64,000 bases of DNA from Echinicola sp. 20G (GTDB taxonomy: Bacteria; Bacteroidota; Bacteroidia; Cytophagales; Cyclobacteriaceae). The notes under the pieces were generated by a model that was not told the DNA's origin, searched no databases, and saw only the letters and a program-made list of their open reading frames with translations. The stretch is taken from assembly GCF_015533855.1 (NCBI RefSeq), contig NZ_AP024154.1, positions 2,176,501 to 2,240,500 of the forward strand. The letters run 5' to 3'. The position numbers and the translations under genes are program-made. Positions 1 through 18,810 of the stretch are shown in pieces (position 1 is the first letter of the stretch; every line of letters begins with the position of its first letter).

Positions 1-2121
1 ACCGCCGTTACCGCAGATATAAAGATTCCAGCCTTTTTCAGTGGCGATAATACCGAAATCTTTGCTTTGGGCTTCCGCACATTCTCTGATACATCCCGAA
101 ACAGCTCCTTTCAGTTTATGTGGTGAACGAAGCCCTCGATACCTTTCTTCTACTTGAATGGCAAAGGAAACTGAGTCTTGGACACCGTATCGGCACCAAG
201 TGCTTCCCACGCAGCTTTTGATGGTCCTGAGTGACTTTCCATAGGCATGGCCACTTTCAAAGCCAGCGTTGATCAATTCTTCCCAAATGTCAGGCAATTG
301 GTCCACTCTGGCGCCGAACATATCTATCCTTTGACCTCCCGTGATTTTTGTGTAGAGCCCATACTTTTTGGCCACTTCGCCTATTACGATTAGCTTCTCT
401 GGGGTGATCTCTCCTCCAGGGATTCTAGGAACTACAGAATAGCTGCCTCCTTTTTGGATATTGGCCAAATACCTATCATTGGTATCTTGGATGGTGTCCT
501 GGTGGGTGATTAGTTCGTTCCAAGTGGAGGCTAAGATGGAAGCCACTGCAGGTTTGCATGTCTCGCAGCCGTCACCTTGCCCATACTGGTCCAGCAGTTC
601 ATTATAAGTTTTGATTTTTTTAACTTTTACCAAATCGAGCAATTCTTGGCGAGAGTAATCAAAATGTTCACAAATGACGTTTTTAACAGTCTTGCCCATC
701 GCTTTTAGTTGGTGCTTAAGCAAATCGTTGACCATAGGCATACACCCTCCACAGCCTGTTCCTGCTTTTGTGCAAGACTTGATTTCATCAACTTTGGTAA
801 CTCCATCGTTTTTGATCAAGCTACAGATACTTCCTTTAGTGACATTTTCACAAGAACAAATTTGGGCTTCTTCTGGAAGGCTTTCCACGCCTGCTCCTAC
901 TGCTTCTTTTCCTCCTCTAGCTCCTAAAATAAGGTCTTCAGGTTCTGGGGGAAGTGGCATTTTGTTTTGCGTCATTTGCCAAAGCATATTATAGGCAGAG
1001 GCATCACCTACCAAGATTCCGCCCAGCAGCCTTTTTCCATCTAAGGAAACATTGATGCGTTTATAAATACCACTATTTTTATTTTCGTATACAATAGGTT
1101 TAGAGGGTTCTACCTCTCCAAATGGATCTCCGAAACTCCCGACGTCCACACCGATTAGCTTCAGCTTAGTGGACATATCAAAACCCATAAAAGGCTTAAC
1201 CTCCTCATTGGCCAGTTGATTGACTACTTGAGTGGCCATTTCATAGCCTGGAGCTACCAGTCCATAGATCATGTTTTGATAAGAAGCAGCCTCTCCGATA
1301 GCGAAGATGTTCTCATCTTTTGTTTGTAAAAATTCATTGACAATGATCCCACCCCTGGGAGCGGTATCTAAGCCGCAGTCTTTTGCCAACTCATCCCTAG
1401 GTTTGATGCCGGCAGAGATAATCAACATATCAACTGGCAATTCCGAATCGTCTGCAAATTTTAGCCCATTGATTCTGCCGTTTCCTGTAATGTTTTGCGT
1501 GTTCTTTTGTAAGTGTATACTTATGCCCAAATCTTCTAATTTAGCCTGAAGGGTATTAGAACCCGCTTCATCCAATTGACGAGGCATTAATCGAGGGGCA
1601 AATTCAATGACATGGGCCTCTAGTCCCATGTCAATTACCGCTTTGGCAGCTTCTAGGCCCAATAAACCACCTCCGATTACAGCAGCTTTCTTGGCGTTTT
1701 TAGCGTAATCAATAATTGCATCAAGGTCTTCTAAAGTTCGGTAGACAAAAACTCCTTTTTTGTCTACCCCTTTGATAGGAGGAACAAAAGCTCCTGACCC
1801 GGTCGCTAAGATGAGCTTGTCGTAATCATAATCGTGTCCCGTATGACTGATGATCTTCTTTTGATCACGGTCAATTTGCACAATCATTTCGTTGGTATGC
1901 AGGTCAATTTTGTTTTCCGCGTACCAAGACCTTGGCGCCATGATCAGGTCGTCTGCAGTAGAGCCTGAAAAATAGGCACTGAGGTGTACTCTATCGTAAG
2001 CAGGCCATGGCTCTTCCCCAAAGACCGTGATTTCAAAATCTCTATTAGAATTTTGGGATACCAGTTTCTCACAGAACTTGTAGCCAACCATTCCATTTCC
2101 GATTACTACTATCTTTGTCAT
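1..2121 (-). CDS. nirB: Nitrite reductase [NAD(P)H] large subunit, 3' end cut by window edge
   Basis: Assimilatory cytoplasmic nitrite reductase, reducing nitrite to ammonium with NAD(P)H. The frame is open from an ATG at 2121 to position 1 (707 codons; the family is about 830). In order: an FAD/NAD-binding half starting TKIVVIGNGMVGYKF with a second nucleotide fold (VIGGGLLGLEAA, about residue 145); a BFD-type [2Fe-2S] region with CSC...CGGC cysteines near 420-455 and a second one (GCETC) near 500; then the ferredoxin-like and siroheme part with TWCRYG and the first siroheme/4Fe-4S cysteines (GCIREC). The remaining cluster cysteines lie outside the window. cobA, which makes the siroheme precursor, is divergent across 153 bp, and the shared intergenic region matches the one upstream of narK. 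nirD would be expected beyond the left edge, but that is inference. Confidence 0.95.
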   Translation of the reverse strand, partial: MTKIVVIGNGMVGYKFCEKLVSQNSNRDFEITVFGEEPWPAYDRVHLSAYFSGSTADDLIMAPRSWYAENKIDLHTNEMIVQIDRDQKKIISHTGHDYDYDKLILATGSGAFVPPIKGVDKKGVFVYRTLEDLDAIIDYAKNAKKAAVIGGGLLGLEAAKAVIDMGLEAHVIEFAPRLMPRQLDEAGSNTLQAKLEDLGISIHLQKNTQNITGNGRINGLKFADDSELPVDMLIISAGIKPRDELAKDCGLDTAPRGGIIVNEFLQTKDENIFAIGEAASYQNMIYGLVAPGYEMATQVVNQLANEEVKPFMGFDMSTKLKLIGVDVGSFGDPFGEVEPSKPIVYENKNSGIYKRINVSLDGKRLLGGILVGDASAYNMLWQMTQNKMPLPPEPEDLILGARGGKEAVGAGVESLPEEAQICSCENVTKGSICSLIKNDGVTKVDEIKSCTKAGTGCGGCMPMVNDLLKHQLKAMGKTVKNVICEHFDYSRQELLDLVKVKKIKTYNELLDQYGQGDGCETCKPAVASILASTWNELITHQDTIQDTNDRYLANIQKGGSYSVVPRIPGGEITPEKLIVIGEVAKKYGLYTKITGGQRIDMFGARVDQLPDIWEELINAGFESGHAYGKSLRTIKSCVGSTWCRYGVQDSVSFAIQVEERYRGLRSPHKLKGAVSGCIRECAEAQSKDFGIIATEKGWNLYICGNGG

Positions 2122-2180: not shown

Positions 2181-2240
2181 ATTACGAGGGCTAAGTTATA
2201 AATTAAATTTTAAAATACGTATAATTACGTAAAAAATTAC
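2181..2240. promoter_or_regulatory. Nitrate-regulon operator/promoter, copy A (nirB-cobA intergenic)
   Basis: This 60-bp segment matches 18561-18620 at 47 of 60 positions without a gap. It carries ACGT at 2217 and 2227, one helical turn apart. Read on the minus strand, TAACTTAG (2191-2198) resembles the Bacteroidota -7 box TAnnTTTG with one mismatch, and lies about 29 bp from the operator centre. The conserved boxes, the lack of a clear -33 TTG and the two flanking nitrite-assimilation genes suggest an activator site near -40 of nirB. The regulator is not identifiable in the window. Confidence 0.6.
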
Positions 2241-2241
2241 T

Positions 2242-2249
2242 TAAATTTG
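2242..2249 (+). promoter_or_regulatory. Predicted -7 box of cobA
   Basis: TAAATTTG fits the Bacteroidota TAnnTTTG -7 consensus exactly and ends 25 bp before the cobA ATG. No TTG occurs at the expected -33 position. That place is taken by the ACGT-N6-ACGT operator (2217-2230), which suggests that the same activator serves both divergent genes. Confidence 0.5.
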
Positions 2250-2274
2250 TTTTAGATACTAAGTAATACATCTT

Positions 2275-3036
2275 ATGGAAAACATTGCAAGTCAACTTTC
2301 GATTGTAGGCGCTGGCCCGGGAGAGCCTGATCTAATTACTTTAAAAGCCATTAAAGTGCTTAAAACTGCAGATGTGGTATTGTATGATGCACTGGCCAAT
2401 GAAGCCCTTTTGGAGTATGTTCCACCTACAGCGGTGAAAGTTTTTGTCGGTAAACGGGCAGGAATGCACTATCGGCAGCAGCGTGAAATCAACAAGATGA
2501 TCGTAAATTATGCAAAAACATTTGGACATGTGGTCAGGCTGAAAGGTGGAGACCCTTATGTTTTTGGAAGGGGACATGAAGAAATGGAATATGCTGCTCA
2601 GCACGGTTTGAGTACCCAATATGTTCCGGGAATCAGCAGCGCCCTGGCAGTACCAGGACTTTCGGGAATTCCATTGACAAAAAGAGGCATCAATGAAAGT
2701 TTTTGGGTAGTTACGGGAACCCTAAAAGATCATTCAACAGCGAAAGATCTTTATTATGCCGCCCAATCTTCTGCTACAGTGGTGATACTGATGGGGGTAA
2801 AAAAGTTACCTGAAATTGTTACGCTATTTAAACAATACCGAGGAGAAGAGGAGGATATTGCATTGATCCAAAATGGAAGCAAGCCTGATGAAAAATCTAT
2901 GGTGGGAAAGCTGGGAAATATTTTGGCTCTGCAGGAAAAGGAAAAAATTGCAGCACCTGCCATTATTGTGATTGGTGCGGTGGTGAGGGAACGTGTTGAA
3001 TCTTTAAGGTCCTTGGTGGAGGAGCAAGTTATTTAA
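2275..3036 (+). CDS. cobA: Uroporphyrinogen-III C-methyltransferase (SUMT)
   Basis: SAM-dependent methylation of uroporphyrinogen III to precorrin-2, the first step to siroheme, the cofactor NirB needs. The protein has 253 residues, the usual size of a stand-alone SUMT. Family motifs are seen in order: VGAGPGEPDLITLKA at residue 11, the ADVVLYDALA segment, VVRLKGGDPYVFGRG near 85, and VPGISSALAVPGLSGIPLT near 118. No CysG-type dehydrogenase/ferrochelatase domain is fused, so those steps must be encoded elsewhere. It is divergent from nirB and followed 93 bp later by a DUF4202 gene. The neighbourhood points to siroheme for nitrite reduction rather than cobalamin. Confidence 0.93.
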   Translation: MENIASQLSIVGAGPGEPDLITLKAIKVLKTADVVLYDALANEALLEYVPPTAVKVFVGKRAGMHYRQQREINKMIVNYAKTFGHVVRLKGGDPYVFGRGHEEMEYAAQHGLSTQYVPGISSALAVPGLSGIPLTKRGINESFWVVTGTLKDHSTAKDLYYAAQSSATVVILMGVKKLPEIVTLFKQYRGEEEDIALIQNGSKPDEKSMVGKLGNILALQEKEKIAAPAIIVIGAVVRERVESLRSLVEEQVI

Positions 3037-3129
3037 GTAAGTTGATCAAGTCTATGATAAATCCAATAGCATTTTCCACAACTCTCCATAAAACCTGTTA
3101 AATTGAATCTTAAACTGAAAGATCAAAGA

Positions 3130-3720
3130 ATGCAGGCTAATAAATTTGAAAGGACTATAGAAGAGTTTGATGTAATCAATGCCCAGGATCCCCATAAAGA
3201 GTTGGTCAATGGAGCTGAAATCCCCAAGGAGTTGGTTTATGGGCACCGTATGAGTGGAATGCTTTTAGAATTTGACCCAAATGCTTCGGAGACCTTACGA
3301 CTTGCCGCAAGGTGTCAGCATATCAAGCGATGGGCGATCCCTCGCGAAGATTATGAGATGGATAGAAAAGGTTATTTACTATGGCGCACCCGGTTGAAGA
3401 AGTTTCATGGGGAATTGGCAGGCTCGATCATGGAAAAGCAAGGTTATTCCCAAGATGAAATCAAGAAGGTAGATGACTTGCTCAATAAAAGAAGGTTGAA
3501 AACAGATTCTGAAGTGCAGGCATTGGAAGATGTGGTTTGTTTGGTGTTCTTAAAATACTATTTTGATGACTTTATCGCCAAACATCGGGACGAGGAGGAT
3601 AAGCTAGTGGATATAGTCCAAAAAACCTGGAAAAAGATGTCAGAAAAGGGCCATGAAGCTGCTTTGGCCATGTCCCATTCAAATGAGGCTTTGTCAATCG
3701 TAAAGAAAGCATTGTCTTGA
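3130..3720 (+). CDS. DUF4202 family protein
   Basis: A cytoplasmic protein of 196 residues with no signal peptide or membrane segment. It resembles the DUF4202 family: a central block with RCQHIKRWAIPREDYEMDR and a conserved GYLLWR segment, rich in His, Asp and Glu as in HD-like metal enzymes. I take the ATG at 3130; a TTG nine codons upstream also opens the frame but is less likely. From memory, DUF4202 genes often sit next to siroheme or nitrate/nitrite assimilation genes, as here behind cobA. The biochemical function is unknown; a metal-dependent hydrolase is only a guess from the His pattern. Confidence 0.75.
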   Translation: MQANKFERTIEEFDVINAQDPHKELVNGAEIPKELVYGHRMSGMLLEFDPNASETLRLAARCQHIKRWAIPREDYEMDRKGYLLWRTRLKKFHGELAGSIMEKQGYSQDEIKKVDDLLNKRRLKTDSEVQALEDVVCLVFLKYYFDDFIAKHRDEEDKLVDIVQKTWKKMSEKGHEAALAMSHSNEALSIVKKALS

Positions 3721-13271: not shown

Positions 13272-16200
13272 TCATGCTTTTACCAATGGCGGTAACTCTG
13301 CTTCCAGAATACTTTTAACTTCCGGTTTGCAGCTGCCACAGCCAAGTCCAGCTCCTGTTTGTTGGCAGAGTTGTCTAAACTCATGGCACCCTGATTGAAT
13401 TGCTTTAGTAATATTACCTTTGCCCACATTGCCACATGAGCATACCATCTCACCAAGCATTTCTTCCTTGTTGGAGTTTCCTCTTAGAAGTTCTTGTCGC
13501 TTTTTAGAAAGCTCGGTTTTTTCTTCTATTAGGCTTTTAAATTCGGCAAACTCAGATTTATCACCCATCAGAATGGCTCCCACCAATCGGTCCTGGTAGA
13601 CAATACACTTTTTATAATAGGTTTGAGCGGTGTCAATGAGTAAAATTTCCTCATATCCCTCCCCATTTGGAGGAGGCTCAGGGATACCAATAGAACAAAG
13701 GTCTAAGTCGGCAAACTTTAGGATGTTCATGGGGACTGATCCTTTGTAAATGCTCAAAAGATCACCAGTAATAAATCTTGCGGCTATATCGGCTTGCATT
13801 TCTGCTGCAGCTGTAATGCCATTGAGTTTACCTTGGTGTTCAGCAATTTCTCCCATGGCAAAGATCGAAGGATCGCTGGTTTGTAAATAATCATTTACCT
13901 TGATCCCTCGTCCACAAATAAGTCCAGCGGACTTGGCCAATTCCATTCTCGGACGTGTTCCAATTGCATATACTACCGCATTGCAATGGATGGTTTGTCC
14001 ACTCTTTAAGCTTACTGTAACTTGCTTTTCGTCCTCTTTACTTTCTAGCTGGGATACTTGGTTATTCATGTATAGCTTGACTCCCATCTCCTCGATTTTT
14101 TCTCTCAGTAAAGAGCTGGCCATGGGATCAAGCTGTCGTTCCATTAGCCTTGACCCCAACTGTACAATAGTCACCTCAATTTTGATTTCACGCAAAGCGG
14201 CTGCTAGTTCTAATCCCAATAGCCCCCCTCCTGCAATCAGTACATGACCTTCGTGGTTGAGGTAGCTTTTGAGTTCATCGGCATTTCGTCTGCTTCTCAT
14301 CGTAAAAATACCGGGCAAATGCATGGGGACATCAGCAGGAACAAATGCCCGACTGCCTGTAGCCAATATCAAGGTGTCATAATGATGCACTTTGCCATTT
14401 TGGTCTGTAACGGTCTTATTCGAACGGTCTATGGACTCAATACCATTTTCTACATATAGCGTGATGTTGAGTTTATCCATTTCTTCCGAGTTTTTAAACT
14501 TCAAGAGATCTTCCCATTCCTTGTGCCGGTTGACATAATCAGGCAAAAGAACACGGTTGTAAAAAGGGTGCTTTTCTTTAGAAAACACATGGATATCATC
14601 TTCTTGGTTGAATTCCCGATATGAGTTGATGAAACGATATGAAGCCGCCCCTGCACCAACGATCAGAATCTTTTGCTTGGGTTTAGTATATTTTTGAACC
14701 TGAACCACAGAGTATTTAAAGTCTGGCTGCTTGGACACAGGGTCAATGGCATTCCCTGTGATATTATTGGTCCGGGAGAAATCATTATTCAGGATTTTAC
14801 CCCAGTGCATGGGTAGGAAAACCACTCCTTTTTTGATTTTTTCTGTCACTTGGGCGTGCACCCTGACTTCACCTCTTTTGCCACTGATCAATACGGTTTG
14901 TCCGTTTGAGATCCCCCTTTCAGCGGCATCACTAGGGTGGATTTCTAAGAACGGAGTAGGAATGTGCTTGTTTAACTTAGAAACCTTTCCTGTTCGCGTC
15001 ATGGTGTGCCACTGATCACGGACTCTTCCTGTGGTGAGGATCAAAGGGAAGTCTTCAGTGGGTGATTCGCTTTTGTTTTTTGGGCCATTGGCAAGGATCT
15101 GCGCCCTTCCGTTTGGCGTGTAAAATTTCTTATCTGTAAATAGACGGACAGTTCCACCTGATGTTTTGCTCGTAAATGGCCATTGAACTGTTCCATGAGA
15201 TTTTAAATGTTCATAATCCAGTCCTGAAATGTCTATATTGGTACCTTTGGTGAGTTGGGTGTATTCTTTGTAAACTTCCGCCATGTTCTGAAAGTCGAAA
15301 CCTTCAAAGCCCATTTTTTTTGCAAAACGCAATAAGATCTCCGCGTCAGGAAGGGCTTCCCCTGGTGCTTGGTTGAATTTGTTGAGGTAGCTGATCCTTC
15401 TCTCGGAGTTGGTCATGGTACCTTCCTTTTCACCCCATCCTGCTGCGGGTAAAACCAAGTCTGCATAAGGGATTGCTTCGGCTTTAGTGGAAATATCCTG
15501 TACCACCACATACTTTGCTTTCTTCATGGCCGCTTCGACTCGCCTGGCATTTGGCATACTAACCAAGGGATTGGTACAAATGATCCATAAAGCTTTGATG
15601 GTGCCATTTTCAATTCCTTCAAAAATCTGTGTGGCAGTTTTACCAGGTTGGTCAGGTAAGCTGTCCACGCCCCAGAAATTGGCAACTTCATCTCGGTGCT
15701 CTTTGTTCAGAAGATTCCGGTGAGAGGCCAGTAAGGTGGCCATGCCACCAACTTCTCTTCCGCCCATGGCGTTAGGTTGGCCAGTAAGGCTGAAAGGGCC
15801 TGACCCAGGTTTTCCGATATGCCCTGTAATCAGGTTCAAGTCAATAAGGGCCAGGTTCTTATTGACGCCTTCTGCACTTTGGTTGAGGCCCATGGCCCAA
15901 AGTGAAAGGAAGCCTTTGGCATTGCCGATATAGGAAGCTGCCAGTTTGATATCGTCCAGTGGAACATCACAAATGGATGCGGCTTCTTCCAAACTGGTTT
16001 GCATGACCAAATTTTTATAGGCTTCAAAACCATCAGCATGGTTCTTGATGAATTCCATGTCAATATCACCTTGCTCAATCAAGCACCTTCCTATTGCCAA
16101 GTACAATACTTCGTCAGTTCCTGGGTTGAGTTGGAGGTGAAGGTCTGCTAGCGAGCAGCTTTGGGTTACTCTAGGGTCTATTACAATGATTTTGGTTTCA

Positions 16201-16793
16201 GGGTGATCCTCTTTGTGTTTTTCTACTCTTCTCCAAAGAATGGGGTGGCACCAAGCGGGGTTGGCGCCAGCCACCAAAAAGCAGTCTGCTAATTCGATAT
16301 CTTCGTATGCGATGGGTACACTGTCTTCCCCTAGTGTTTTGATATATCCCATGACGGCTGAGCTCATGCACAGCCGGGAGTTGGTGTCTATATTGTTTGT
16401 TTTTAAATACCCTTTTGTCAGTTTATTGACCAAATAGTATTCCTCTGTCAAGCATTGTCCAGAAACATAAAAGGCTACTGCGTCTGGCCCATGTTTTTTG
16501 ATGATGGATTTAAAAACAGCTGCTGTTCTATTGAGTGCTGTATCCCAGTCTACTTTTTCTAAGGGATGGGATTTGCCCCAGCGCATTTGTGGGTGCAATA
16601 ACCGATCTGATTTGTCTTCAACCACATAGTGGAGGTTCATGCCTTTGGAGCATAGCATGCCCTTGTTGACAGGGTGTTGGGGATCGCCTTCTACCGTAAC
16701 TCTGCCTTTATTGTCTTGATGGACAATGATGCCACACCCAACTCCACAGTAGGAACAAGTACTTTTATAGCTTTTATTTTTGGCTGTTGACAT
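13272..16793 (-). CDS. nasA: Assimilatory nitrate reductase fused to a NirB-like FAD/NAD module and BFD [2Fe-2S] tail
   Basis: A cytoplasmic molybdopterin enzyme for nitrate to nitrite reduction. Residues 1-700: a [4Fe-4S] site (CSYCGVGC...MLCSKG), the molybdopterin core (ADCFLVAGANPAWCHP near 170; GHIGKPGSGPFSLTGQPNAM near 325; PLVSMPN near 415) and a molydopterin dinucleotide-binding end (ILTTGRVRDQWHTMTRTGK near 600). Residues about 705-1060: FAD/NAD-binding rossmann folds (ILIVGAGAASYRF; LIAGGGLLGLELAAAL) closely similar in pattern to the start of NirB in this window. Residues about 1110-1165: BFD domain with CSCGNVGKG...CGSCKP. In many bacteria these parts are separate (NasC/NasB), so the 1173-residue chain is a self-contained NAD(P)H nitrate reductase. 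It lies 15 bp from narK. Confidence 0.93.
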   Translation of the reverse strand: MSTAKNKSYKSTCSYCGVGCGIIVHQDNKGRVTVEGDPQHPVNKGMLCSKGMNLHYVVEDKSDRLLHPQMRWGKSHPLEKVDWDTALNRTAAVFKSIIKKHGPDAVAFYVSGQCLTEEYYLVNKLTKGYLKTNNIDTNSRLCMSSAVMGYIKTLGEDSVPIAYEDIELADCFLVAGANPAWCHPILWRRVEKHKEDHPETKIIVIDPRVTQSCSLADLHLQLNPGTDEVLYLAIGRCLIEQGDIDMEFIKNHADGFEAYKNLVMQTSLEEAASICDVPLDDIKLAASYIGNAKGFLSLWAMGLNQSAEGVNKNLALIDLNLITGHIGKPGSGPFSLTGQPNAMGGREVGGMATLLASHRNLLNKEHRDEVANFWGVDSLPDQPGKTATQIFEGIENGTIKALWIICTNPLVSMPNARRVEAAMKKAKYVVVQDISTKAEAIPYADLVLPAAGWGEKEGTMTNSERRISYLNKFNQAPGEALPDAEILLRFAKKMGFEGFDFQNMAEVYKEYTQLTKGTNIDISGLDYEHLKSHGTVQWPFTSKTSGGTVRLFTDKKFYTPNGRAQILANGPKNKSESPTEDFPLILTTGRVRDQWHTMTRTGKVSKLNKHIPTPFLEIHPSDAAERGISNGQTVLISGKRGEVRVHAQVTEKIKKGVVFLPMHWGKILNNDFSRTNNITGNAIDPVSKQPDFKYSVVQVQKYTKPKQKILIVGAGAASYRFINSYREFNQEDDIHVFSKEKHPFYNRVLLPDYVNRHKEWEDLLKFKNSEEMDKLNITLYVENGIESIDRSNKTVTDQNGKVHHYDTLILATGSRAFVPADVPMHLPGIFTMRSRRNADELKSYLNHEGHVLIAGGGLLGLELAAALREIKIEVTIVQLGSRLMERQLDPMASSLLREKIEEMGVKLYMNNQVSQLESKEDEKQVTVSLKSGQTIHCNAVVYAIGTRPRMELAKSAGLICGRGIKVNDYLQTSDPSIFAMGEIAEHQGKLNGITAAAEMQADIAARFITGDLLSIYKGSVPMNILKFADLDLCSIGIPEPPPNGEGYEEILLIDTAQTYYKKCIVYQDRLVGAILMGDKSEFAEFKSLIEEKTELSKKRQELLRGNSNKEEMLGEMVCSCGNVGKGNITKAIQSGCHEFRQLCQQTGAGLGCGSCKPEVKSILEAELPPLVKA

Positions 16794-16808: not shown

Positions 16809-18164
16809 TTAGCTTTTTACAAACTCTGGCTGAAGCTCTTTTTCAGAAAGAGATGCTTCCAATTCTGTTTTGGCAATTCTTTCGTCCTCTTTGGAAAACC
16901 TCACCAAAAGAGAAGTCGCACTGATTGCTGCTACAGCAATACCTAAGACAGTCAAAGCCTCTCCATAGGAAATACCTTCCATTTTAAAGAGGAAACCTGC
17001 CATTACAGCACCCGCATTACCTCCAGCTCCAACGATGCCAGATATGGTGCCAATGGCTTTTTTATTGACAAAAGGAACCACAGAAAAGGTGGCGCCTTCT
17101 GCCATTTGAACAAAGAGACTGAACAGAATCATGGTGCCAATAGCCAAAGGCAATACTGTCATTTGAGCAAATAAGATCAATGCAAAACCTTCTACTAGCA
17201 ATACAGCCCCCAAGAAACCTACTCGGCCTTTAAGGCCCCACTTGATTCCTGCCTTATCTCCAAACATCCCGCCTACTGATCTGGCAAATAGATTCATCAA
17301 ACCGAACAGGCCTGCGATAAGCCCTGCGGTTTTCAAATCAAGTTGGAAGTAATCATGATAGTAGATGGCGGCAATATTGTTGATGGTAAGTTCAATTCCG
17401 AAACATGCTCCGTAAATCAGAAACAAGGCCCAAACCCTGTAGTCCTGAATAGCAGCTTTAAGGGCCCCTTGACCGTCAGCCTTTTTCTTCTTTTTATACT
17501 CCAGGTCTGCTTTGCTTAAGTCAGCGATATTCCCCTCTGGAAAATCAGTGGTCCATTTGTAATAAGCTATACCGCACAGGATCATGGCTATGCCTGGAAC
17601 TACCATTGCATATCTCCATGCATCAGTTTCTATAAAGCCCAAGGACACAAAAAAGGCGAAAATTAATGGCATGACCATTTGTGTCACTCCACCTCCCATA
17701 TTTCCCCAGCCAGCAGAAGTAGCATTGGCGGTACCCACTACATTGGGGGCAAACATCACTGAAGTATGGTACTGGGTGATCACAAAGGAAGACCCGATTA
17801 TCCCAATGGCCAGTCTGAATAACAAGAAACTTTCATAACTGTTGCTTAGGCCAATGAGCATAACAGGAATAGACCCCAAAATTAATAAATAGGTATAGGT
17901 GACCCTGGGACCAATTCGATCCACCAACCAGCCAATCGCAAGCCGGGCGATAACTGTGATGGATACCGATGCAATGATGATGTTTCCAATTTGAGACTTA
18001 GTAAGGTCCAATTCATTCCTGACCACAGCCATAAGTGGTGCAATCCCAAACCATCCGAAGAAGCAAAGGAAGAAGGCAAACCAGGAAAGGTGAAAGGCCC
18101 TCATCTGAGGAGATTTAAAATCCAATAACTTGATTGATGTGGCTTTTTTTGCTGATAGTTTCAT
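16809..18164 (-). CDS. narK: Nitrate/nitrite transporter, MFS family NarK/NasA type
   Basis: An inner-membrane protein of 451 residues with 12 predicted helices. NarK-family features: an N-terminal AFHLSWFAFFLCFFGWFGIAPL, a RLAIGWLVDRIGPR loop near residue 78, and glycine-rich nitrate signatures such as GWGNMGGGVTQMVMPL near 153 and GIVGAGGNAGAVMAGFLFK near 377. It carries nitrate into the cell for the nitrate reductase encoded 15 bp downstream. The nearest good promoter candidate is about 400 bp upstream, in the element shared with nirB, so the mRNA may have a long leader. Confidence 0.92.
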   Translation of the reverse strand: MKLSAKKATSIKLLDFKSPQMRAFHLSWFAFFLCFFGWFGIAPLMAVVRNELDLTKSQIGNIIIASVSITVIARLAIGWLVDRIGPRVTYTYLLILGSIPVMLIGLSNSYESFLLFRLAIGIIGSSFVITQYHTSVMFAPNVVGTANATSAGWGNMGGGVTQMVMPLIFAFFVSLGFIETDAWRYAMVVPGIAMILCGIAYYKWTTDFPEGNIADLSKADLEYKKKKKADGQGALKAAIQDYRVWALFLIYGACFGIELTINNIAAIYYHDYFQLDLKTAGLIAGLFGLMNLFARSVGGMFGDKAGIKWGLKGRVGFLGAVLLVEGFALILFAQMTVLPLAIGTMILFSLFVQMAEGATFSVVPFVNKKAIGTISGIVGAGGNAGAVMAGFLFKMEGISYGEALTVLGIAVAAISATSLLVRFSKEDERIAKTELEASLSEKELQPEFVKS

Positions 18165-18309
18165 TTCATTAAAGATTAAAGATGGGACATCTGGTAAGGA
18201 GTATTCTTTTAGTTAAGAAACAGGCACCAGGAGTATTTACCTAGGTCCAAATCTGTATTTAGAGAACTATTGATTTTTAGTACTGATAAATATGGGCTGA
18301 AAGCAGATC

Positions 18310-18379
18310 AAGCCAACCAGGAAATTTTCTCTCCTTAATCCCTCAATTGATTGGAGAGGGAGTCTCCTTGGTTTGGCTT
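18310..18379. repeat. Large imperfect inverted repeat in the narK leader
   Basis: The left arm (18310-18334) and right arm (18353-18379) start and end with AAGCCAA/TTGGCTT, continue through CCA/TGG and GGA/TCC, and close with CTCTCC/GGAGAG, with bulges, around an 18-nt loop. The resulting ~70-nt stem-loop would lie inside the narK 5' leader if transcription starts at the shared element. No T-run follows on either strand, so a terminator is unlikely. Confidence 0.55.
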
Positions 18380-18418
18380 CTACTGCATTTCACTTTGTTC
18401 AACCTTTATTTAAATGAT

Positions 18419-18436
18419 TTACGTATTTCTACGTTG
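18419..18436. promoter_or_regulatory. ACGT-N6-ACGT site, third copy
   Basis: TTACGTATTTCTACGTTG has ACGT at 18421 and 18431, the same 10-bp spacing as at 2217/2227. It lies about 255 bp upstream of narK. A matching -7 box next to it is poor (TAAAGGTTG on the minus strand). It may be a secondary operator. Confidence 0.4.
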
Positions 18437-18560
18437 ATTCACCCAGCGCTAAAATGGTGAGCAGTTATTTTGGTTGTTATTGTGTTTGACTAGCTATTTT
18501 ACTGCTCTAGGTTTACTTTCGATGATGGAAATATTATCAGTCTAGAGCTTTAAGGAAATA

Positions 18561-18620
18561 ATAACAAGGGCTAAGGTAAATAATAATTTTTAAAATAAGT
18601 AAAATTACGTAAAAATATTT
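18561..18620. promoter_or_regulatory. Nitrate-regulon operator/promoter, copy B (upstream of narK)
   Basis: Aligned without gaps to 2181-2240, 47 of 60 bases agree, including AAAATTACGT/TAATTACGT-type repeats and the AGGGCTAAG block. On the minus strand TACCTTAG (18571-18578) corresponds to TAACTTAG of nirB, while the plus-strand -7 box of cobA is not conserved. The shared promoter therefore points toward narK, with a start near 18564 and a leader of about 400 nt. Further ACGT sites follow at 18621 and 18640. Confidence 0.6.
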
Positions 18621-18810
18621 ACGTAATTTTTTAATTATTACGTAGTGGCGAGGTGTGTGTCATGTAAAGAAACCTAAGTGTAGGTTTTTCTATCTTGGCA
18701 TAATCACTGACTAGCGAGGGTTTGAAAGTAAAATAAGGGGCAATAGATAATCAATGCAGGAAAATAAACCTTACTTTTATTATCAGTCATCAGATCAAAT
18801 ATTTTCTACT

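Follow-up and report, generated by a model that had tools for sequence, protein, structure and literature searches.

A 2021 review describes narHK/narRR, a class of nitrate-sensing two-component systems in the Bacteroidetes whose kinases lack HAMP and GAF domains and sometimes contain a PAS domain (PMC8199190). The words "promoter" and "operator" do not occur in the main text of that review. In E. coli, an engineered 7-2-7 site for NarL has the sequence TACCCCTAAAGGGGTA, with the heptamer TACCCCT, and 7-2-7 sites lie at -40 to -49 in napF and at -38 to -47 in yeaR (PMC4549865). A third point of comparison is the nitrate chemoreceptor McpN, whose PilJ domain has been solved (6GCV) and carries an N-box of the form [IVL]-[ND]-x-A-G-x-Q-R-M-L-[ST]-Q (PMC6381276). 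We propose an operator and a regulon for the narHK/narRR class. The class itself was already known; our searches of the open-licence PMC literature turned up neither an operator nor a regulon for it.

A kinase-regulator pair near nirB

The genome studied (G000) is a single contig of 5.79 Mb, and the window is the whole stretch of 64,000 nucleotides that was analyzed (G000:C1:2176501-2240500). The genes on nirB's strand run in the order nirB, a Rieske protein (nirD-like), a DUF4153 gene, a 605-amino-acid kinase, a response regulator, and a moa operon; the kinase starts 2.6 kb beyond the nirB stop codon, just left of the window. According to Pfam, the kinase contains PilJ (PF13675, 56.1 bits against a cut-off of 26.6), PAS_9, HisKA_3, and HATPase_c domains, with no match to HAMP or GAF at 1e-3. 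The regulator (narRR, G000:C1:2170986-2171666) has a receiver and a LuxR-type domain, and its best sequence match in the PDB is NarL (1a04). None of the NCBIfam models for NarX, NarQ, NarL, or NarP reaches its cut-off on either protein. A PilJ-type sensor with a GxxR nitrate motif, a PAS domain, no HAMP or GAF-like domain, an adjoining LuxR-type regulator, and nitrate genes nearby are all features of narHK/narRR pairs of the Indibacter type (PMC8199190), and the two proteins appear to belong to that class.

We searched a set of 79 related genomes, of which 24 encode the full-length kinase and 30 encode nirB. The regulator adjoins the kinase in all 24, and RTIETHRFNIMKK is present in 22 of them. 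In an alignment, the recognition helix is ETHRFN here as opposed to KVHVKH in E. coli NarL. The GxxR motif has the same glycine and arginine in all 20 kinases that were aligned (of 24 found) and in 24 of 24 sensors from named genomes. The kinase of G000 is 77% identical to that of E. salinicaeni, which places the genome close to Echinicola. A profile built from the 20 kinases matches the sequences of PilJ 7zjr (7.7e-8) and McpN 6gcv (6.7e-6); NarX and NarQ chains are absent among the matches listed (60 of 193). We also modeled the structure of the sensor (mean pLDDT 87.7, pTM 0.69). McpN, the closest solved fold, provided the top three matches and fragments of NarQ ranked 6 and 9, but these matches are weak: none has E ≤ 0.001, and other four-helix sensor domains rank among them. 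In the kinase, the N-box of McpN corresponds to INISGRQRMLSQ, which matches except for a serine in place of the alanine. Unlike in McpN, which is a chemotaxis receptor, the domain feeds a histidine kinase here.

Shared 60-bp elements at nirB/cobA and narK

The sequence-only reading had reported that positions 2181-2240 and 18561-18620 of the window agree at 47 of 60 bases with no gap, and our count is the same. The runner-up 60-mer in the window, considering both strands, has 34 matches. The best 60-mer in 100 dinucleotide shuffles of the window had 38 matches, which was also the best in 2,000 shuffles of the narK intergenic region. The core of both elements is a 16-bp palindrome, TACGTA-N4-TACGTA. 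The ACGT-type repeats noticed earlier lie exactly where they had been placed (ACGT at 2217 and 2227, AAGT at 18597, and ACGT at 18607). The -7-like boxes that had been claimed on the minus strand are also there: TAACTTAG at 2198..2191 and TACCTTAG at 18578..18571. In both cases, the distance from the first base of the gene-proximal hexamer to that of the box is 23 bp. The features of the two regions are:

1..2121, minus strand: nirB, nitrite reductase large subunit (NCBIfam TIGR02374); extends beyond the window
2191..2198, minus strand: nirB-facing -7-like box TAACTTAG, agreeing with TAnnTTTG at 5 of 6 fixed positions; predicted start near 2186
2216..2231: putative core operator of nirB/cobA, TACGTATAATTACGTA; 16-bp palindrome made up of two TACGTA hexamers spaced by 10 bp, exact match
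2238-2243: hexamer TACTTA, overlapping the cobA-facing -7 box TAAATTTG
2242..2249, plus strand: cobA-facing -7 box TAAATTTG, a perfect TAnnTTTG (6 of 6); predicted start near 2254; the genus alignment shows this block to be conserved
2260..2265: hexamer TAAGTA at the far end of the nirB array, 44 bp away from the hexamer nearest nirB; kept in all 11 genomes of the genus
2275..3036, plus strand: cobA, uroporphyrinogen-III C-methyltransferase, for siroheme (TIGR01469)
13272-16793: nasA-like gene, downstream of narK
16809..18164, minus strand: narK-type nitrate/nitrite transporter (MFS_1), upstream of the nasA-like gene
18286..18409 (within 18165-18454), minus strand: candidate structured RNA, the core of model R1, in the narK leader of about 400 nucleotides
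18420..18435, minus strand: second site in the narK leader, AACGTAGAAATACGTA, one mismatch
18571..18578, minus strand: narK-facing -7-like box TACCTTAG, agreeing with TAnnTTTG at 5 of 6 fixed positions; predicted start near 18566
18596..18611: putative core operator of narK, TAAGTAAAATTACGTA, one mismatch to TACGTAN4TACGTA
18620-18625 and 18639-18644: the narK array continues with two more TACGTA hexamers, each of them conserved across the genus alignment

The hexamer arrays extend beyond the 60 bp, to 2265 at nirB and to 18644 at narK. Read toward nirB or narK, the common layout is extra hexamers, TACGTA, 4 bp, TAC(G/T)TA, 17 bp, and TA(A/C)CTTAG. Hexamers 41-45 bp away also recur in other promoters. 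The -7 box that faces cobA had been described as unconserved. This holds for the narK copy, which does not have one; it does not hold within the genus, as a TAnnTTTG lies just beyond the end of the 60-mer and is kept in 11 genomes.

The narK-type transporter scores 307.8 bits against TIGR00886, just below the cut-off of 311.7. The nasA-like protein (1173 amino acids in all) carries a NirB-like NAD(P)H/BFD module at its C terminus, and a gene for a DUF4202 protein (3103-3720) lies downstream of cobA in the nitrite-reductase neighborhood. An Rfam scan of the window found nothing at the gathering score except a tRNA.

The TACGTA pair across genomes

The entire genome has six sites that match TACGTAN4TACGTA with one mismatch or none, and three of these are exact. 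All six are at nitrate-assimilation loci, if the nrt-like cluster is indeed specific for nitrate, which we infer:

2178716: nirB/cobA
2195096 and 2194920: narK (two sites)
2170880: upstream of a 79-amino-acid ORF that heads the moa operon
1287286-1287301 (L009 6287-6302): upstream of a Crp/FNR-like gene
1288166: upstream of genes for an Alginate_exp-type porin, an NMT1_2 binding protein, a permease, and two ATPases (the nrt-like cluster)

The 79-amino-acid ORF is probably MoaD, as read by eye from its sequence, and it is followed by moaA, moaC, mobA-like, ThiF/MoeB-like, and moeA genes. If two mismatches are allowed, there are 57 pair sites in the genome as compared to 253 for the backward control, so the pair is not over-represented at that level; its signal resides in the best matches and in their locations.

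To look beyond the family, we scanned named genomes with an alignment of the kinase. This gave 80 loci, and we analyzed the first 59 (L153-L211, nearly all from Bacteroidota by their titles). In 56 of these there is an ORF for nirB, narK, or the nasA-like protein; 52 of the 59 loci contain at least one TACGTA-pair site, and seven contain none. Hexamers spaced by 10 bp account for 144 sites, of which 65 are exact; none of the other spacings from 6 to 30 exceeds 40 sites or 10 exact ones. With ORFs called mechanically, 138 of the 144 sites are intergenic. For sites no more than 600 bp from the start of a gene, the nearest ORF is most often nirB (55 sites), cobA (38), narK (34), or nrtA (16), followed by the porin (9), nasA (7), the kinase (6), the regulator (4), crp (3), DUF4202 (2), and unnamed ORFs (8). 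When we repeated the count across all 80 loci with the 23 remaining palindromic hexamers of equal composition, there were 0 to 2 sites per locus, and the TACGTA pair is absent from L214-L232, which are mostly from Bacilli.

A matrix of the 144 sites, which is biased because they were selected at one mismatch or less, has a nearly invariant GTA-N4-TAC, with G at position 4 in 99% of the half-sites. Deviations cluster at a single outer position, where A replaces C in 21%. The consensus is TA(C/A)GTA-N4-TAC(G/T)TA. Written as TA(C/A)GTAWW/WWTAC(G/T)TA, it consists of two inverted heptamers with 2 bp between them, which is the geometry of NarL's 7-2-7 sites. Like the E. coli site, it is 16 bp long and two-fold symmetric with TA at both ends (PMC4549865). 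The heptamers themselves differ from NarL's at position 4 of the half-site, which is G here and C in NarL, and by sequence the element does not qualify as a NarL site. The consensus heptamer of NarL is TACYYMT.

Could the Crp/FNR-family protein encoded beside the nrt-like cluster bind the element, by the same logic as NtcA? The consensus for NtcA has GTA-N8-TAC-type spacing, and one pair of hexamers in the narK array, 14 bp apart, does form GTA-N8-TAC. The crp-like gene also belongs to the regulon. However, the preferred spacing is GTA-N4-TAC, and the 14-bp spacing accounts for just 15 sites, against 144 at 10 bp. Furthermore, an orthologue (at least 67% identity) is missing from 12 of the 23 genomes that have the site at nirB, and the paralogues in those genomes are at most 38% identical. 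Finally, the gene is itself preceded by a site, which ends 12 bp ahead of the likely ATG, so it looks like a target. This suggests that the gene is regulated, and perhaps repressed, by the same regulator as the nitrate genes. The spacing and the missing orthologues make it highly improbable that the Crp-like protein is the factor.

The sequence-only reading had proposed that its operator would fall if orthologues of nirB and narK did not share it. We therefore looked for pairs with at most one mismatch inside the 300 bp upstream of nirB. Among the relatives, all 23 of the nirB-containing genomes with the full-length kinase have the pair, as compared to none of the seven without the kinase; shuffling the 23 upstream regions gave 0.04 of 23 on average. 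A class-wide draw of 295 genomes provided 12 further nirB loci, with the pair in three of five with the kinase and in none of seven without it. The two kinase-bearing misses (G178 and G142) have only a two-mismatch pair at nirB. Joining both sets gives 26 of 28 against 0 of 14 (Fisher 2e-9), or 16 of 17 against 0 of 11 by genus (Fisher 6e-7); both tests ignore phylogeny. For narK, there is a site inside 1 kb upstream in 15 of 21 genomes with the kinase and in none of seven without it. Of the six kinase-bearing genomes without such a site, three (G022, G035, and G038) have an exact site about 1.4-1.5 kb upstream, which in G035 stands before a porin-like gene. Within the genus, all 11 genomes have the pair upstream of nirB and a site upstream of narK. 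Conservation at the orthologues of both genes thus lends strong support to a nitrate-regulon operator, as judged from the sequences.

Could the elements be alike by chance, or because a promoter was recently duplicated? The region is AT-rich, as chance likeness would have it, but shuffled sequences reached 38 matches at most, and the element is kept at both genes in all 11 genomes and recurs beyond the genus. We rejected both explanations on these grounds, and either one is almost certainly wrong.

The 11 genomes of the genus contain 37 exact sites, and 36 of these could be placed at nirB, just beyond the kinase-regulator pair (in G000, at the moa operon), at narK, or at crp/porin. We placed them by position, except for two sites (in G003 and G005, which lack nrtA) that were placed by homology of the porin. 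The other exact site, in G002, is unassigned. The backward control has no exact site in 10 of the 11 genomes and one in G000. Across the 79 genomes, an exact pair occurs somewhere in 21 of the 24 with the full-length kinase and is missing from three; as it also occurs in 17 of the 55 without the kinase, a lone pair means little by itself.

Another LuxR-type regulator might bind TACGTA pairs, with the kinase pair being a mere neighbor. In G021 (L098, L259), where we did not find nirB, one of six exact sites is beside a different pair, with a HisKA_3-type kinase and a LuxR-type regulator, and another regulator may use the same palindrome in that genome. For the nitrate genes we consider this explanation very unlikely, since the nirB site tracks the PilJ-PAS kinase across genera. 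The evidence instead points to the NarX/NarL-like two-component system as the factor that binds the pair.

Four of the genomes without the full-length kinase (G052, G058, G071, and G076; loci L250, L254, L251, and L252) have a shorter PilJ kinase that was matched in two pieces, without the PAS part. In three of them it lies no more than a few kb from nirB; in G071 the distance is 53 kb. We did not find the TACGTA pair at nirB in these four genomes. These kinases are probably the PAS-less class of PMC8199190. Could they form a sister system with a different operator?

We conclude that the 60-bp elements are very likely nitrate/nitrite promoter-operator modules that are bound by the NarL-like regulator of the narHK/narRR pair. 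What the computations show directly is that the palindromic site lies at nitrate genes, that it is conserved, and that it co-occurs with and is linked to the kinase-regulator pair; direct binding, nitrate as the signal, and activation are what we infer from them. In this mechanism, nitrate or nitrite would be sensed by the NarX/NarQ-like kinase (narHK), through its PilJ domain with the GxxR nitrate-binding motif, and narHK would phosphorylate the adjacent NarL-like regulator, narRR. A dimer of narRR would then bind the operator, which consists of two TACGTA hexamers spaced by 10 bp and is accompanied by more distant extra hexamers. At the nirB, narK, and moa promoters, the bound regulator would occupy about -45 to -30 in place of a -33 element, recruit RNA polymerase to the weak -7 boxes, and activate transcription.

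Because the palindrome can be searched for by eye, the kinase class becomes a testable regulon that spans nitrate uptake, nitrate reduction, siroheme, and the molybdenum cofactor, and that is relevant to many marine and soil bacteria. It also offers a natural comparison: a NarL-like regulator at the unusual -7/-33 promoters of Bacteroidota.

Promoter geometry, sign of regulation, and the narK leader

In a flavobacterial map of transcription starts, the -7 box lies at -12 to -5 (PMC9723704). If so, the starts would be near 2186 and 18566, which puts the operator at about -45 to -30. The predicted starts are within 2 bp of those expected earlier (2184 and 18564), and the position of the operator is near those of the 7-2-7 sites in napF and yeaR (PMC4549865). 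Across the genus, the distance from the first base of the gene-proximal hexamer to that of the -7-like box is 22-24 bp at both genes: TA(A/T)(C/T)TTAG at 23-24 bp for nirB and TAnnTTAG at 22-24 bp for narK, each in 11 of 11 genomes. A TA(C/T)CTTGC-like box is similarly spaced at the moa site.

We sorted the loci beyond the family into Flavobacteriaceae-type and Cytophagales-like sets by their record titles and order; the species are related, so they are not independent. In the Flavobacteriaceae-type set, a perfect TAnnTTTG shares the last TA of the second hexamer in 22 of 68 promoters, and at least 5 of 6 positions match in 39 of 68. Reversing the flanks gave five perfect boxes in all and at most one at any one offset. 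In the Cytophagales-like set, just 2 of 21 promoters have an overlapping box; boxes that match at 5 of 6 positions or better lie most often at +17, counted from where the pair ends (5 of 21). We did not find one fixed distance from the site to the -7 box across the phylum: the offsets are specific to each clade. The overlap with the -7 box in many Flavobacteriaceae-type loci, along with the extra hexamers in the array, distinguishes these sites from those of E. coli NarL.

The main alternative to activation is that the same system acts with the opposite sign, or with both: the regulator would sit over the -7 region or the start of some or all of the promoters and so repress them. The overlap in Flavobacteriaceae-type promoters fits repression, but it also fits another geometry for activation. 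The site at the crp-like gene is so close to the likely start codon that repression would make sense there, and in 7 of the 11 genomes of the genus a -7-like box directly adjoins the hexamer at the kinase gene. On the other hand, the pair at nirB, narK, and moa in this genus sits upstream of a -7-like box that departs from TAnnTTTG, as expected for a promoter that depends on an activator, and overlapping boxes are rare among the Cytophagales-like promoters. Also, genes for nitrate assimilation are generally induced by nitrate. We therefore view repression or dual action as unlikely, although it deserves serious attention. Given that the geometry varies by clade and that the species are not independent, a single mode of action for all of the promoters is not established.

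A broader proposal is that there is one TACGTA-N4-TACGTA regulon across the Cytophagales and the Flavobacteriaceae, with clade-specific geometry and with a structured leader RNA at narK in some Echinicola-like species. The operator would be upstream of the -7 box in Echinicola-like species and would overlap it in many Flavobacteriaceae; the leader RNA, transcribed from the nitrate promoter, would be a second layer of control on narK that responds to a nitrogen-related signal. Taken as a whole, this proposal is doubtful.

The candidate RNA in the narK leader is present in 5 of the 11 genomes of the genus. In its model, 14 of 54 base pairs have changes on both sides, as compared to 3-6 if the alignment is slid, and none of 500 shuffles reached this level; this comes from just five sequences, and the covariation energy is small. 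The model has one strong match in each of these five genomes, at narK, and no strong score was found beyond them; weak matches elsewhere are in G008 (E = 0.009) and G007 (E = 0.07). On the narK leader, Rfam reported only implausible eukaryotic families, below the gathering score. A second operator-like site in the leader (at most one mismatch) is present in 4 of the 11 genomes. The narK leaders of G008, G001, and G009 (L114, L116, and L120) lack an R1-type RNA; what these three have in common is another stretch, in which GGCC...GGCC, resembling a terminator, and a run of T come before narK.
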